Below, piece after piece: positions 2,110-17,426 of a stretch of DNA of 47,787 nucleotides. Every line of letters begins with the position of its first letter. Positions within the stretch are counted from its first letter, which is position 1. This DNA is from a virus: the IMG/VR virus record IMGVR_UViG_3300043538_000003, positions 1-47,787 of that record. The stretch is one strand, 5' to 3'. The position numbers and the translations under genes were made by a program. The notes beneath the pieces were generated by a model. That model saw only the letters and a program-made list of their open reading frames with translations. It made no database searches and was not told where the DNA came from.

Positions 2110-3283
2110 ACTGAACTGTTACGGGTTTTAGAAGTTCTTCATACATCCCGAACACCATCTCCCGCACGCTCTCAGGAATGGGCTGCATGTACGTTCCCGC
2201 AGTCATGTCGGGCTTCGCATGCCTCATCTGGCGCTGGACGTCCTTCACTGTTCCATGGGCCTGGGCGAGCGTTGAAAACGTCCTGCGAAGGACTTGGAAG
2301 TTTAGCTTCGTAATCCCCTGGATACCGGCGCCCTCTCGATCACGCAGCGGATACAGAACACGATTCAGGTAGTTGTCCTTGCTGATAAACCCGCCGTCAG
2401 AGTTCGGGAAGATGAACGATTCCGGCCCGCCTTCCTGATTCTCCAGCCATCCCTTCAATTCCTTGGCCAGCGCCGGCGAAAGATCAACCGTGGTTAAGCT
2501 GCCATCCGTCTTGCCGTAGTGTCTGATCTTGCCGCGGTAGATCGTCTCCGCGATCCTCAGTTGGTCCCCGGTAAACGACTTCCTTCGCAGGGCAAAGAGT
2601 TCACTAGGTCGAAGGCCGGCGATCCCCTCAATCGAGATAATCAGCCTATCCCGCTCCCCCAGTGCCGCGAATATCCTTCTCAAATCTTCCCACGTGAGGA
2701 CCGTGGTATCAGTGCTCTTGGTATTCTTCGGCCTCTTCAGATGCCTAGACGGATCTTTTATCAGATAATCCTGTTCAACGGCTTCTGAGCAAATCGACTT
2801 CAGGAAGGTCCGGACGTGCATAATTATTGACTTCGAGTACTTCTTGGCCAACTCGTTCAGCCAGGATTGGAGCTCAACCTTGTCAATCTTCAGAAGCGGG
2901 GTGGCGCCAAATCTGTTCCGAATGATGGTCATTAGCTGCTCATTCGTGCCCCGCGTGCTCTCCTCCCGCCAGTCTGACTCGTGGAGAGGCTTCCAGCGGG
3001 CATCCATGAACCCGCCAAACGTTGTCTCGTCTATCCGCCCCGCGTTAGCATTCACTGGTTTCACGATCTTGGCCAGTTCTTCCTCAGCCTGATACCGCTT
3101 CATCTGGGCCTTGGAGCCCACAATCCGAGTCCTGTGCCGGCGCCGTTCTTTTCCCGTTTCCGGATCGCGGACGTAGGGAAACCAGTGCGCCTGCCAGAGA
3201 TTTGAATTAGTGAGCGTTAAATAGCCTTTTGAGTAGCGAGCTCTCCCCAAGTCAGACCTCCCGTATTTTCGAATGGGGGACAT
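2108..3283 (-). CDS. int: Tyrosine recombinase, phage integrase
   Basis: This enzyme catalyses site-specific integration and excision, with its target the adjacent tRNA-Gly core. It has an N-terminal basic arm-binding region (about 1-70), a SAM-like core-binding domain (about 90-185) and a C-terminal catalytic domain. The catalytic residues visible are R225 (GLRPSE), K258, R333, H355 (MRHAK) and the nucleophile Y365 (GTYMQ). The usual HxxR histidine before the second arginine is Q330 (QVLR). That position varies in active recombinases, so I do not take it as proof of inactivity. The gene starts one base after the stop of the HTH gene upstream and ends at the right-arm attP repeats. Confidence 0.95.
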   Translation of the reverse strand: MSPIRKYGRSDLGRARYSKGYLTLTNSNLWQAHWFPYVRDPETGKERRRHRTRIVGSKAQMKRYQAEEELAKIVKPVNANAGRIDETTFGGFMDARWKPLHESDWREESTRGTNEQLMTIIRNRFGATPLLKIDKVELQSWLNELAKKYSKSIIMHVRTFLKSICSEAVEQDYLIKDPSRHLKRPKNTKSTDTTVLTWEDLRRIFAALGERDRLIISIEGIAGLRPSELFALRRKSFTGDQLRIAETIYRGKIRHYGKTDGSLTTVDLSPALAKELKGWLENQEGGPESFIFPNSDGGFISKDNYLNRVLYPLRDREGAGIQGITKLNFQVLRRTFSTLAQAHGTVKDVQRQMRHAKPDMTAGTYMQPIPESVREMVFGMYEELLKPVTVQ

Positions 3284-3284
3284 T

Positions 3285-3503
3285 CTACCCGTATCTCTGC
3301 TCTCGAATGAAGTTTTCTACGTCCTGAGGTATAAACTTCCACAATCCTTTACCATCCTCAGTCCCCAGTTTAATAGCGGGAAGTTTCGGAACCCTTCTCC
3401 CGGAGGCATGATCCCTTACCCAAGCCGAACTCACGCCCAGCCATTCTGCCACTTCTCCCACTGATAGTAGGCGGCATCTCTCGGATTTAATCTCTACTGT
3501 CAT
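3285..3503 (-). CDS. Excisionase-like helix-turn-helix protein
   Basis: This 72 aa protein has the layout of the MerR/AlpA-type excisionase HTH fold. LSVGEVAEWLGVSSAWVRDH forms the helix-turn-helix (about 13-32), a basic wing follows, and it closes with LWKFIPQDVENFI. It should bind DNA near attP and direct excision, or regulate the integrase. The stop codon is one base from the integrase start, so the two are translated together. Confidence 0.8.
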   Translation of the reverse strand: MTVEIKSERCRLLSVGEVAEWLGVSSAWVRDHASGRRVPKLPAIKLGTEDGKGLWKFIPQDVENFIREQRYG

Positions 3504-3527
3504 AGGGTTAAAGAGTAAAGTCGTGAG

Positions 3528-3887
3528 TTAAAATGGCTTCTCCGACTTATCTAGGGCAGCGCGGATCGATTCCATTTGGTGGCCGGTAACGAAAATCTTG
3601 TATCCCGGGCCGAACTCTCCCTCGAAGCAGAATTGCGTGAACCGAAGGGCGCGCTCCAGTTCCAGTACTCTCTTCTCCGCGGCCGTGGCTCGTATCTCTT
3701 GTACGTCACGATCAGCCCATAGAGCCCGATACGCGGATTCAGCCTGAGCCATACTCTTGAAAATGGGCGAGGCTTCTTTGTGCCAAGGGTCGAATTTGAT
3801 CCCCCAGTTCTGACACCCGCCATGTACGCTCGTCCAGATGAATGAGCCCTTGTCCCTACTTCCGCATGTTGGGCACTCGTCAGTCAT
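3528..3887 (-). CDS. Hypothetical zinc-ribbon protein, 119 aa
   Basis: The start at ATG 3887 is fixed by GGAG seven bases upstream. The N-terminus carries CPTCGSRDKG and a later HGGC, which suggests a small zinc site. A helical segment (about 50-80: AESAYRALWADRDVQ...EKRVLELERAL) could be a coiled coil. No family was recognised. It belongs to the leftward early operon. Confidence 0.65.
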   Translation of the reverse strand: MTDECPTCGSRDKGSFIWTSVHGGCQNWGIKFDPWHKEASPIFKSMAQAESAYRALWADRDVQEIRATAAEKRVLELERALRFTQFCFEGEFGPGYKIFVTGHQMESIRAALDKSEKPF

Positions 3888-3918
3888 TAGATTTCTCCAT
3901 TCTGCAAATCTTTTTTGT

Positions 3919-4302
3919 CTACGAAGCAGCGACTTCGAGCGTGGCCTGAACGGGTCCCTGCCCACCATCTTCCTGCTCCTCTTGAGGTTCAACAGAAGCA
4001 ACCCAATCTGCGATCCGCGAGCGGGTCCAGAAGTGGTTATCGTTGAGGTGCCAAACGAGATTAGCGGCCAAGGTTTGCTTCGGGCAGGCTGGACAGGTAA
4101 AGACCTGCGCCTTATCATTCCGCGACCAAGGCCATGTCCGCGCTACCATCGGGTAGTTGTCATCTGAGCGTGCTTGCTGCTTCCCAACAGACTGCAAGGC
4201 CCCGCCTAGGGCACACGGAGCCTGGAGGCTGCTTATCGAATCGCCGCCGAATCCCTGCTCTCGCATCATTCCGTTCATCCTGATCGCTTCGCTGAGTTTC
4301 AT
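3919..4302 (-). CDS. Phage protein with C2H2-like zinc motif, 127 aa
   Basis: It starts at ATG 4302, which overlaps the previous stop (ATGA) and has GGAGAG upstream. The N-terminus (MKLSEAIRMNGMMREQGFGG...CALGGAL) resembles a recurrent small phage protein that I know only as hypothetical. The second half has CPAC with WHLNDNH, a plausible zinc knuckle. A nucleic-acid-binding role is possible but unproven. Confidence 0.7.
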   Translation of the reverse strand: MKLSEAIRMNGMMREQGFGGDSISSLQAPCALGGALQSVGKQQARSDDNYPMVARTWPWSRNDKAQVFTCPACPKQTLAANLVWHLNDNHFWTRSRIADWVASVEPQEEQEDGGQGPVQATLEVAAS

Positions 4303-14596: not shown

Positions 14597-14904
14597 AAAA
14601 CGAGCTAATTCAGGAGTTTTGGAATGCTTAGGCGGAATGGTCGCAGGCTACTTTCGGCGCCGATTCTGAACGTGATCACATTGGCCCGTTGAAACATCTT
14701 GCCAAAGAAGCGGTTGAGGCTCAGGTCCGCCCCGCAGATACGTTAGAGATTGCCGACTGCCTATTTCTGGTATTCGATGCTGCGCGAAGGGCTGGATTGA
14801 CCCTCGAGGGCCTGATTACAGTGGCGGAGGCAAAACTCCTCATCAACAAGGCGAGGAAGTGGAGCAAGCCGTCAAGTGACGAGCCAGTGGAGCATATTCG
14901 GTGA
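14593..14904 (+). pseudogene. DUF550-like nucleotide phosphohydrolase with in-frame amber codon
   Basis: ATG at 14593 overlaps the upstream stop, but codon 13 is TAG (14629-14631). The frame then continues without a break as AEWSQATFGADS..., ...GPLKHLAKEA, DCLFLVFDAARRAG, INKARKW and DEPVEHIR. These are the order and motifs of DUF550/MazG-like dATP/dGTP phosphohydrolases. Upstream and downstream parts fit one protein, and a single C-to-T change (CAG to TAG) would explain the stop. It may be a nonsense mutant, a readthrough case, or a sequencing error. A truncated start at TTG 14689 would lose the N-terminal helix. Confidence 0.7.
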
Positions 14905-15095
14905 AACGCCATACTAAAGCGGAATCCCTCCAAGTTTGCTACCTATGCCATTTACCGGCTCGGGCGGGAAGCGCAATAAGCGACGCTAGGGGGAGGAAAC
15001 ACAAAAAGTGTGCTCCGCCTTCAACTCGGAGAGATAGGCCCGTCCCAGCCAGCCAGAACGCTGGGAAAGGGCTATCTGGTGAGTCTCAGTGTTAA
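14901..15095 (+). CDS. Basic zinc-knuckle protein, 64 aa
   Basis: The GTG start overlaps the upstream TGA (GTGA). CYLCHLP near the N-terminus and a later KCAPP suggest a small zinc site, and the rest is basic and disordered. It overlaps the methyltransferase start by 7 bases. No family was recognised. Confidence 0.5.
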   Translation: MKRHTKAESLQVCYLCHLPARAGSAISDARGRKHKKCAPPSTRRDRPVPASQNAGKGLSGESQC

Positions 15096-15778
15096 CTCAT
15101 GGGTCTTTGTTCTCCGGGATTGGCGGAGTAGATCTTGGATTCGATCGGGCCGGCATCAGAACGGCATGGCAGTGCGAGATAAGCGAATTTTGCAGGGCGG
15201 TACTGGAGAAATATTGGCCGGAAGCGAAGCGGTTCTCAGATGTGAACGAGTTGACGTCATCAGCGGAGGATTCCCCTGCCAGGATATCTCCTTTGCCGGC
15301 TATGGCGCCGGACTGGAAGGCGAGCGCTCTGGACTTTGGCGGCCAGCGGTACGAGCCATTCGCGTGGTACGACCAAACTTCGCGCTCGTGGAGAACGTGG
15401 CAGCCCTGCTTGAGCGGGGAATGGGCACAGTTCTCGGGGACTTGGCCGACAGCGGGTATGACGCGCAATGGTCTTGCATATCAGCTTGCACCTTTGGTGC
15501 GCCACACATGCGACAGCGAGTGTTCATTGTGGCCCACGCCCACAGCCTCAATGGACGGAAGGGGTTTTGGGATACCTATGCACGAGCATTCCGGCCGCTA
15601 CAAACGTTCGACGGTTTTGAGAGTGCAAGAGCTAGTACGCGAGAACGGTTGGCGAATCCATCCGAACTTTACAGAGGCGCTGATGGACTGGCCAATGGAC
15701 TGGACCGCAATCGCGCCATTGGCAACTCAATCTATCCCAGAATCGCTGAATTTATTGGCCGCCGAATCGTTGAAGTAA
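15089..15778 (+). CDS. Dcm N-terminus continuing into an alternative-frame domain, 229 aa
   Basis: GTG at 15089 opens a frame whose first 53 residues are the N-terminus of a C5 cytosine methyltransferase (GSLFSGIGGVDLGF, motif I; then WQCEI and YWPEAKRFSDVNE). After about 15250 this frame no longer encodes the methyltransferase but stays open to 15778. It then reads SRSWRTWQPCL, FSGTWPTAGMTRNGLAYQL, LWPTPTAS and MDWPMDWTAI. From memory, phage proteins with the pattern SWKTSQ...TWPRSGM.RNG.AYQL...WPTP...GFP.GWT are common next to dcm genes, so this second half also looks like a selected protein. See the companion entry. Confidence 0.55.
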   Translation: MLTHGSLFSGIGGVDLGFDRAGIRTAWQCEISEFCRAVLEKYWPEAKRFSDVNELTSSAEDSPARISPLPAMAPDWKASALDFGGQRYEPFAWYDQTSRSWRTWQPCLSGEWAQFSGTWPTAGMTRNGLAYQLAPLVRHTCDSECSLWPTPTASMDGRGFGIPMHEHSGRYKRSTVLRVQELVRENGWRIHPNFTEALMDWPMDWTAIAPLATQSIPESLNLLAAESLK

Positions 15779-15792
15779 CTGAGACTCTATGA
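15250..15792 (+). pseudogene. dcm: C5 cytosine methyltransferase, motifs IV-X, in a shifted frame
   Basis: Starting at GTT 15250, one base back from the frame of the motif I part, the sequence reads VDVISGGFPCQDISFAG (motif IV with catalytic Cys), NFALVENVAALL (motif VI), GAPHMRQRVFIVAH (motif VIII) and RNRAIGNSIYPRIAEFIGRR (motifs IX-X). The methyltransferase is thus complete only if the two frames are joined. Relatives usually have roughly eight more residues between DV..L and VDVISGG. A short deletion between two GTTGAC-like copies could have caused the shift. The stop at 15792 overlaps the next ATG (ATGA), as normal junctions here do. Confidence 0.75.
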
Positions 15793-16118
15793 CATTAAGC
15801 TGCCATCTGCCCTTGTTCCCGATCCCACTCATTGGCGAGCACTTTTTCGATGAGCCCCGGCTCGGTCTGGCGGAGATTTTCAAATCTGGCGGGAGATTGT
15901 GTAGCCCAAGAAAGTACAGCGGCAATAGTCGGCTGGACTCCCTGGCCCCATACCTGTACCCAGACGGCCAGATCGCAGGAACGTTTAAATCTCCCCGAGC
16001 ATCCGTGACGTGCGGCGTCGTGGGAAAGCTGAATTATCCACGGTATAAACAACATTTTTTATGTCCTCCCCTTTTTGGTGTTCGTTGTTCGGAAAATGTA
16101 ACTCAGCAGATAAAGTGA
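15789..16118 (+). CDS. Hypothetical protein, 109 aa
   Basis: The ATG overlaps the methyltransferase stop. The sequence has no recognisable domain and an unusual mix of cysteine, proline and aromatic residues. The region contains an AT-rich stretch near 16050 and a DnaA-box-like TTATCCACG (16034-16042), so part of it may be noncoding. Support comes only from the junction and the open frame. Confidence 0.35.
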   Translation: MTLSCHLPLFPIPLIGEHFFDEPRLGLAEIFKSGGRLCSPRKYSGNSRLDSLAPYLYPDGQIAGTFKSPRASVTCGVVGKLNYPRYKQHFLCPPLFGVRCSENVTQQIK

Positions 16119-16169
16119 TTGTGAGCCGAATTGAACACTTTTGAAAATAAAGCGAATACTGTAGGCAAG

Positions 16170-17426
16170 ATGAGGAAGCACGAACTCTCGCAGGCGGTCA
16201 CATGTTACGAAGGCGATGCCATAGCCTGCCTGCGGGAAATGCCAGATCAGTCGGTGAACTGCTGCGTTACCAGTCCCCCATATTGGGGATTGCGGGATTA
16301 TGGGACGGCAACGTGGGACGGGGGAGCGGCGGATTGTGATCACATTAAGACTACATTGTCAGGTAGCGCGTGCAAGTTGCGGAACGATGGCCGGGAGCAC
16401 ATAGGCCTATACGAAAGCGAGAAAGCCGCCACGTTCTCGGTAACTCCCTACCGGGATCAGTGTGGCAAGTGTGGCGCAACTCGAATCGACTCCCAACTCG
16501 GACTTGAAGCCACGCCAGAACTCTACATCTCCAAGATGGTCGAAGTTTTCCGCGAAGTGAAGCGAGTTCTACGGGATGACGGAACTCTATGGTGCAATAT
16601 GGGAGACTCGTATAACAACCGGGAGGGGCAGCGAGTTCAGGGCGCAGAGCAGCGCGACGATGTGGCTGGATGGAAGCAAGCGACGAATATAGGCTCTACC
16701 AATGTGGGCAGCAGGCACGCGCCTAATCTAAAGCCGAAGGACCTCTGTGGAATCCCCTGGATGCTCGCCTTCGCGCTTCGCGCCGATGGCTGGTACTTGC
16801 GGCAGGACATCATCTGGGCGAAGCCCAACCCCATGCCCGAGTCCGTTACTGATCGCTGTACCAAATCTCATGAATACATCTTCCTGCTGTCGAAGTCGGA
16901 GCGGTACTACTACAACCAAGAGGCTACGCTTGAGCCCTGCAGCCTGCGGACTCCTGCGAGTTTCAAGGGAAGCATACCGGGGCGCAATGGCGGGCCCGGA
17001 CAGGATAGGCGATCAACTGCCGACCGACGACTGAAGGCGTGGGATAACGACATGGGTTCGAATCGGACGCTGGTATCAGGCTACGGACGAAAGCTGGCAG
17101 AGCCGGACAGCGGAACCAAGAACAATTCCAGTTTCGACGCGGCTATGGCGATCATGCCAGAGAAGCGTAATCGGCGCAGCGTTTGGACGGTGAACACCCA
17201 AAGTTTCAGCGATGCTCACTTCGCTACCTTCCCAGAAGAACTCATCAAGCCCTGCATCCTAGCCGGATGCCCGCCCCAAGGTACAGTACTCGACCCCTTC
17301 GGCGGGAGTGGCACAACCGGATTAGTAGCTCAGAACAACGGATGCAAGTCTATCCTGATTGAATTGAATCCTGAATATATCGAGATCATGCGAAAACGCT
17401 TAAGCCAAGAAGTATTCCAATTCTAA
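16170..17426 (+). CDS. N4/N6 DNA methyltransferase (beta class)
   Basis: This enzyme transfers methyl groups from S-adenosylmethionine to adenine or cytosine amino groups in DNA. The catalytic TSPPYW lies near residues 34-39, and the AdoMet motif DPFGGSGTTGLVA lies near the C-terminus (about 375). This order places it in the beta class. A cysteine-bearing insert (CGKCGATR) lies after motif IV, and the family-typical ...RVLRDDGTLWCNMGDSY and DIIWAKPNPMPESV follow. ATG 16170 is chosen over TTG 16131 because the family starts shortly before the YEGDA segment. It probably protects phage DNA from host restriction, or marks it for regulation. Confidence 0.9.
   Translation: MRKHELSQAVTCYEGDAIACLREMPDQSVNCCVTSPPYWGLRDYGTATWDGGAADCDHIKTTLSGSACKLRNDGREHIGLYESEKAATFSVTPYRDQCGKCGATRIDSQLGLEATPELYISKMVEVFREVKRVLRDDGTLWCNMGDSYNNREGQRVQGAEQRDDVAGWKQATNIGSTNVGSRHAPNLKPKDLCGIPWMLAFALRADGWYLRQDIIWAKPNPMPESVTDRCTKSHEYIFLLSKSERYYYNQEATLEPCSLRTPASFKGSIPGRNGGPGQDRRSTADRRLKAWDNDMGSNRTLVSGYGRKLAEPDSGTKNNSSFDAAMAIMPEKRNRRSVWTVNTQSFSDAHFATFPEELIKPCILAGCPPQGTVLDPFGGSGTTGLVAQNNGCKSILIELNPEYIEIMRKRLSQEVFQF

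Follow-up and report, generated by a model that had tools for sequence, protein, structure and literature searches.

How one stretch of phage DNA can carry the motifs of a cytosine methyltransferase in one reading frame and a second conserved protein in the frame beside it, and whether that second protein is made and put to use, is the question raised by one locus in the window analyzed here (the whole stretch of DNA, 47,787 bases, from IMG/VR record IMGVR_UViG_3300043538_000003). The window resembles a temperate tailed phage, with an integrase, a DnaB-like helicase, a large terminase, a portal and head closure proteins, and no tRNA genes were found in it. Throughout, alpha denotes the methyltransferase chain and beta the second, SWKTSQ-type protein. 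The answer that we favor, with a probability of roughly 80%, is that the locus encodes a two-chain C5-cytosine DNA methyltransferase whose chains are read from the same DNA in different frames.

Inspection of ORFs in the window identified two plus-strand frames, A and B, that are both open for about 510 bp (15265 to ~15775), B being offset by +1 relative to A. Frame A contains GGFPCQDIS, ENV, GAPHMRQR and RAIGNSIYP and matches PF00145 in Pfam (E=5.7e-26, profile positions 61-167) and phrog_363 (E=5e-46); it represents the core of a C5-cytosine methyltransferase, motifs IV-VIII and X, and lacks motif I. In the window, motif I is joined to frame B, because residues 5-57 of this frame match positions 4-55 of the PF00145 profile (E=2.8e-7); frame B also matches phrog_363, and the rest of frame B (residues 50-155) matches phrog_1008 in PHROGs (E=2.8e-21). 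The original prediction, that Dcm motifs lie in one open frame and a SWRTW protein in the other, with motif I fused to the overprinted frame and not to motif IV, is thus confirmed by the ORFs and by both databases, and the fusion recurs in eight other loci. The principal features are as follows; short motifs were located by their sequence.

15089-15778, plus strand: frame B ORF, 229 aa, GTG start, comprising the motif I part and the overprinted beta domain (PF00145, phrog_1008).
15107-15127, plus strand: AdoMet-binding motif I, LFSGIGG, in frame B.
15266-15775, plus strand: beta domain, in +1 of alpha, a putative subunit with target-recognition domain (TRD) and motif IX (beta HMM E=2e-71, the window itself being one of 15 training rows; phrog_1008 E=7e-19; dual-coding tests).
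15386-15400, plus strand: beta SWRTW (SWKTSQ-type) motif, over alpha VENV.
15443-15472, plus strand: beta WPTAGMTRNG, over alpha LADSGYDAQW; both G columns >90% conserved in 110 betas.
15530-15550, plus strand: beta WPTPTAS, where the variable (TRD-like) region begins; T and P columns >90% conserved in 110 betas.
15674-15706, plus strand: beta EALMDWPMDWT, motif-IX-like (family consensus WVEWLMGFPxGWT); E, M, G and P columns >90% conserved in 110 betas, with only 2-2.5 bits to RLTPRECARLMGF of conventional enzymes.
15010-15792, plus strand: frame A ORF with the alpha core (IV-VIII and X) and without motif I (PF00145 E=5.7e-26, phrog_363 E=5e-46).
15274-15291, plus strand: motif IV, PCQDIS (catalytic Cys), in frame A.
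15391-15399, plus strand: motif VI, ENV, in frame A.
15496-15519, plus strand: motif VIII, GAPHMRQR, in frame A.
15712-15738, plus strand: motif X, RAIGNSIYP, in frame A, that is, in the alpha frame.

Upstream, the TAA of a 64-aa ORF (14901-15095) overlaps the GTG start of frame B (GTGTTAA), an overlap that suggests translational coupling. Downstream, the next gene (16131-17426) is a second DNA methyltransferase (PF01555, N6_N4_Mtase, E=2.7e-47), and the 109-aa ORF lying between the two methyltransferases (15789-16118) gave no Pfam or PHROG match.

The relation between the two frames extends far beyond the window. All 11 loci recovered with the beta region of the window have beta in +1 of alpha. 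A scan with alpha only gave 80 loci, all with beta in +1 and none in another frame, and a scan with beta only, covering 398 bacterial genomes of one phylum, matched 27 genomes and yielded 30 loci, in every one of which alpha overlaps such that beta is +1; no beta without alpha was found among these 30. Beta is nested likewise in eight distant phage and plasmid loci, distant versions being found in Paenibacillus, Klebsiella, Komagataeibacter, Lacticaseibacillus and Acinetobacter phages and in Bacteroides and Nostoc plasmids, and the pattern also lies in +1 of alpha in intact phage genes (mycobacteriophage SG4, Rctr197k, a Porphyromonas phage and Sulfitobacter phage phiGT1). Altogether the overlap was observed in more than 150 divergent loci from tailed phages, prophages and plasmids. 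It was present in every complete locus examined; the beta-less loci L133 and L165 are cut by a contig end. phrog_1008 matched 110/110 beta proteins tested. The proposal that the SWKTSQ-type protein is an overprinted product in +1 of dcm therefore holds in intact relatives (80/80 alpha-first and 30/30 beta-first), and its description as a protein found beside dcm was mistaken, since it lies within the dcm gene wherever examined. Beta homologs always encoded at separate loci would have refuted the proposal; they were sought, but all 30 beta-first loci overlap alpha.

A conserved frame need not be a translated one, and the +1 frame might merely mirror the conserved Dcm protein sequence without ever being translated. 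Part of the beta pattern is indeed forced, because beta overlies conserved Dcm residues. How much is forced was estimated by synonymous recoding of alpha from its own codons (30 recodings of each locus for scores, 200 for stops) in 138 loci that are <70% identical to the training set. Conserved Dcm residues alone yield ~52 of the 143 beta bits, so that the hand back-translation of Dcm in the original prediction, which had produced a SWKTSQ-type pattern, captured a real effect but one that falls well short of real beta. The real +1 frame scores a mean of 142.9 bits versus 51.6 in recodings and beats the best recoding in 138/138 loci, whereas the motif I part, not overlapped by beta in these loci, shows almost no excess (44.9 versus 41.4 bits). 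Stops are depleted in +1 (2.08 per locus observed versus 5.08 expected) and not in +2 (10.07 versus 10.00). Conventional C5-methyltransferases carry no beta signal (0.8 versus 0.2 bits, n=16), and the beta frame is enriched in ATG and Shine–Dalgarno (SD) signals, detailed below.

Synonymous codons of alpha are frozen only in the overlap. Their identity there is 0.468 versus 0.322 expected, compared with 0.372 versus 0.348 before motif IV, and peaks at 0.85 versus 0.28 where alpha RVADGVPA coincides with beta WVEWLMGFP. The original prediction had called for a test of reduced synonymous variation, and variation in alpha is suppressed exactly in this region: pairwise dS is 0.3-0.6 in the overlap, whereas the motif I part gives 0.5-2.6 or, for most pairs, saturation. 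Where the window and its relative L008 encode the same residue, the codons agree in 23% of cases within the motif I part and in 65% within the overlap. In the overlap, the +2 frame too is more similar than in recodings; as +2 stops are not depleted, we read this excess as DNA frozen by two frames. Both frames are under selection, and the recoding scores, stop counts, codon freezing and control with conventional enzymes already contradict a mere reflection of Dcm, which we regard as having next to no chance of being correct.

The part that beta may play is suggested by what alpha lacks. Alpha aligns to M.HhaI over residues 13-176 and, weakly, 293-318, and to no other part; the M.HhaI segment missing from alpha is the TRD plus motif IX. 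An AlphaFold model of alpha from L008 (pLDDT 84.6) matches M.HhaI over 162-172 residues at 1.5-2.1 Å, and its linker, residues 161-220, is of low confidence and occupies the place expected for the TRD. The middle of beta is variable and contains between one and several WPTP modules; the C-terminal end of the protein, LNPxWVEWLMGFPxGWT, is similar to motif IX, which reads RLTPRECARLMGF in conventional enzymes. Its match to the conventional motif IX profile amounts to just 2-2.5 bits, falling exactly on motif IX in three conventional proteins and on the LMGF core in a fourth, and no match came from comparing profiles of beta and of the C-termini of only five conventional enzymes. No homolog of beta was detectable by sequence in the PDB, no fold match was obtained from a weak model of beta (pLDDT 66.5), and no convincing Pfam or NCBIfam model was found; the conserved stretches of the beta alignment (A1) were too short for its use as a search profile. 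Because alpha is without the TRD and motif IX segment, and beta combines a variable region with a motif-IX-like LMGFP end, beta is most likely the recognition subunit, an inference in which we have good confidence.

The arrangement with motif I in alpha, motif IX in beta and motif X in alpha is found in 133 of 151 nonredundant loci, the assignment of motif IX resting on the weak match just described; L004 (phage Shaka) and L061 carry motif X in the beta frame. Beta could instead be real but have a separate job, for example as a regulator or an anti-restriction protein, and the absence of a solved homolog or fold match leaves room for this. Against it, beta was never found apart from alpha, and alpha lacks exactly the segment comprising the TRD and motif IX. 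Moreover, motifs I and X each change frame between the chains in some loci while a single copy of each is retained in most complete loci, and such an exchange of end motifs is expected if both chains build one enzyme. We therefore consider a separate job unlikely and retain beta as the probable recognition subunit.

Two loci illustrate how variable these ends and middles can be. In L061 (positions 3203-4012), a truncated alpha has its C-terminal tail (RVATGI..RVNRLKCLGNAVVPQ) encoded farther downstream, in the beta frame; LMGFP of beta is conserved there with no alpha overlying it. In L148 (2712-3698), the variable region of beta contains about six WPTP/WQTP modules, with repeats of the VADA/VADP type in the alpha frame, and this modularity may reflect several recognition units.

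Besides the locus of the window, those with motif I in the beta frame are L014, L015, L016, L101, L102, L103, L104 and L105. A tree built on the alpha core places the window with L008 and L020, both of normal arrangement, and the other eight swapped loci in a separate clade of 22 rows, with L101, L102, L015 and L016 as one supported group. At least two origins of the switch are inferred from this topology; the tree was a quick one, with few columns and a more careful search left incomplete. The motif I part shows a dN/dS of 0.08-0.09 in the swapped group, and this purifying selection indicates that it is still used there. Of the eight swapped loci, five have an ATG at the (K)xWP codon as the start of alpha′, the shortened catalytic chain left by the switch, versus 1 of 129 normal loci (Fisher p=9e-7, or 1e-5 with L015 and L016 counted once), an excess that represents two or three independent events at most. 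The fuller interpretation, in which indels on at least two independent occasions transferred motif I from the catalytic chain to the overprinted one, giving working enzymes with a previously undescribed partition (I, TRD and IX in one chain; IV-VIII and X in the other) and with alpha regaining its own start, is tentative, and we place it slightly below even odds.

Further breaks were noted at individual loci. L104 (2327-3204) has motif I in the beta frame and a stop in alpha′ directly before motif IV, with no usual start codon, and for these reasons may be broken. In L129 (2489-3443), the frame is likewise broken between motifs I and IV, and motif I lies in a third frame relative to both alpha and beta. 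In L003 (2489-3248; mycobacteriophage Llama gp74/gp75), an indel in the overlap crosses frames and fuses the N-terminal part of beta to the C-terminal part of alpha; several other cluster F mycobacteriophages show the same pattern of pieces.

How translation of beta begins was approached through start signals. In the interval that runs from the final stop of the beta frame to motif IV, an ATG occurs in 81% of loci versus 41% of recodings, and any start codon in 96% versus 72%; with the count extended to the 15th codon past motif IV, the number of ATGs per locus is 1.45 versus 0.79. ATGs of the beta frame also have stronger SD pairing (per-ATG mean -3.55 versus -2.63, p=4e-6). The best reading of these signals, as far as sequence alone allows, is that beta would be initiated internally at a variable site. 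A fixed start at the DV codon before motif IV had been considered; it was present in just 38 of 141 loci, without enrichment or an SD signal, and was abandoned in favor of variable internal starts. Programmed ribosomal frameshifting upstream of motif IV, making both products and giving both chains motif I, would account for the presence of motif I in either frame. L104, where a stop lies just before motif IV and alpha′ has no start, also speaks for it. However, no conserved slippery sequence was seen, synonymous constraint just before motif IV is not comparable to that in the overlap, and neither the enrichment of the beta frame in start codons and SD sites nor the gain of an alpha′ ATG in the swapped clade is in keeping with it. 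Frameshifting thus appears very unlikely, and internal initiation of beta remains the preferred reading.

Whether the copy in the window is itself intact is a separate matter. From the HWP/YWP tryptophan to motif IV there are 50 nt in the window and 75 in L008, a net loss of 25 nt. Two features are relevant here.

15215-15265, plus strand: frame-switch region, 25 nt shorter than in the nearest relative, L008 (by comparison with L008).
15214-15792, plus strand: candidate alpha′, 192 aa, with an inferred TTG start after GGAG (SD duplex -6.4 kcal/mol, best among the starts compared; alpha′ has an ATG at the same place in L014, L101 and L102).

Because L008 and L020, the nearest relatives, keep the normal arrangement, a normal alpha/beta pair could have been broken here, either by a recent deletion that inactivated it or by a fault of assembly. 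In the same direction, alpha′ of the window has only a TTG start, a codon that is common by chance at that site (T before TGG in 54/129 normal loci), and a search for a second copy of the arrangement close to the window found none. On the other hand, a multi-base deletion is atypical of base-calling error, both frames are free of stops and retain all motif residues, GGAG stands at a good distance before the TTG at 15214, and the swapped arrangement persists under selection elsewhere. A pseudogene or assembly error must accordingly be taken seriously without being favored, and the chances that the window copy is functional are about even; the point is undecided.

On the two-chain reading, alpha would provide catalysis through motifs IV-VIII and X, and in most relatives motif I too, without a TRD or motif IX. 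Beta, in +1 of alpha, most likely has its own internal start and is the most likely source of the TRD and motif IX, and the two chains would assemble into one enzyme; physical assembly and methylation activity are inferred. In the window and in the separate clade, an indel between motifs I and IV would have put motif I into the beta frame, after which the chains would be motif I plus beta, and a shortened alpha′ (IV-VIII and X) with a start of its own.

To our knowledge, cases in which two conserved proteins share a long overlap on one strand have rarely been documented outside small viruses. A two-chain enzyme of this kind would explain the large phage family phrog_1008, filed merely as ‘DNA methyltransferase’, and why many phage Dcm proteins seem to be without a recognition domain. 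It would also carry a warning: half of the enzyme may be lost when a dcm gene of this type is cloned by itself in recoded or codon-optimized form. In addition, the movement of protein parts from chain to chain through a change of frame could be tested on the motif I switch.

Compared with conventional Dcm and M.HhaI (PF00145), the locus shares motifs I, IV, VI, VIII and X and the catalytic fold, but the conventional enzymes consist of one chain, with the TRD and motif IX in frame and no beta in +1. Judged by PF00145, frame A of the window has the PCQ/ENV/RxR core and, unlike most relatives, does not carry motif I in the chain with motif IV; alpha does not have the TRD and motif IX expected in a catalytic chain. 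The label of phrog_1008 (‘DNA methyltransferase’, 329 positions) hides members that are read from +1 of dcm. Both frames are annotated as genes in the records of Paenibacillus phage Bloom (BLOOM_56/57) and mycobacteriophage Shaka (gp76/gp77); no text recognizing such a gene pair as one overprinted two-chain enzyme was found, nor was a paper on the phage-wide pattern in open-license literature, REBASE being excluded.

The closest precedent, by analogy, is M.EcoHK31I, which likewise has two chains. Its small chain is reportedly encoded in an alternative frame inside the gene of the large chain (Lee, Kam and Shaw, 1995), as beta is inside the alpha gene. Neither the phage and prophage distribution nor a motif I switch is reported for M.EcoHK31I in the literature examined. 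According to PMC3404938, M.EcoHK31I (YGGCCR) has motifs I-VIII and X in its large chain and motif IX in its small chain, and the large chain is also predicted to hold the recognition domain. In our loci motifs I and X are similarly in alpha in 133/151, with only a weak match to motif IX in beta, and the window has motif I in beta; unlike the large chain of M.EcoHK31I, alpha has no room for a TRD in most members. M.AquI (CYCGRG) is a C5-methyltransferase split after motif VIII (PMC3404938). L004 and L061, with motif X in the beta frame, resemble the small AquI chain; in the window, however, motif X is in frame A, so that a small chain with both IX and X is not present, and in 133/151 loci motif X is likewise in alpha. 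A further difference from M.AquI is the two-frame overlap of the chains here, which spans most of their length. The breadth of the arrangement, the selection on both frames and the motif I switch appear undescribed, and the principle itself has precedent.
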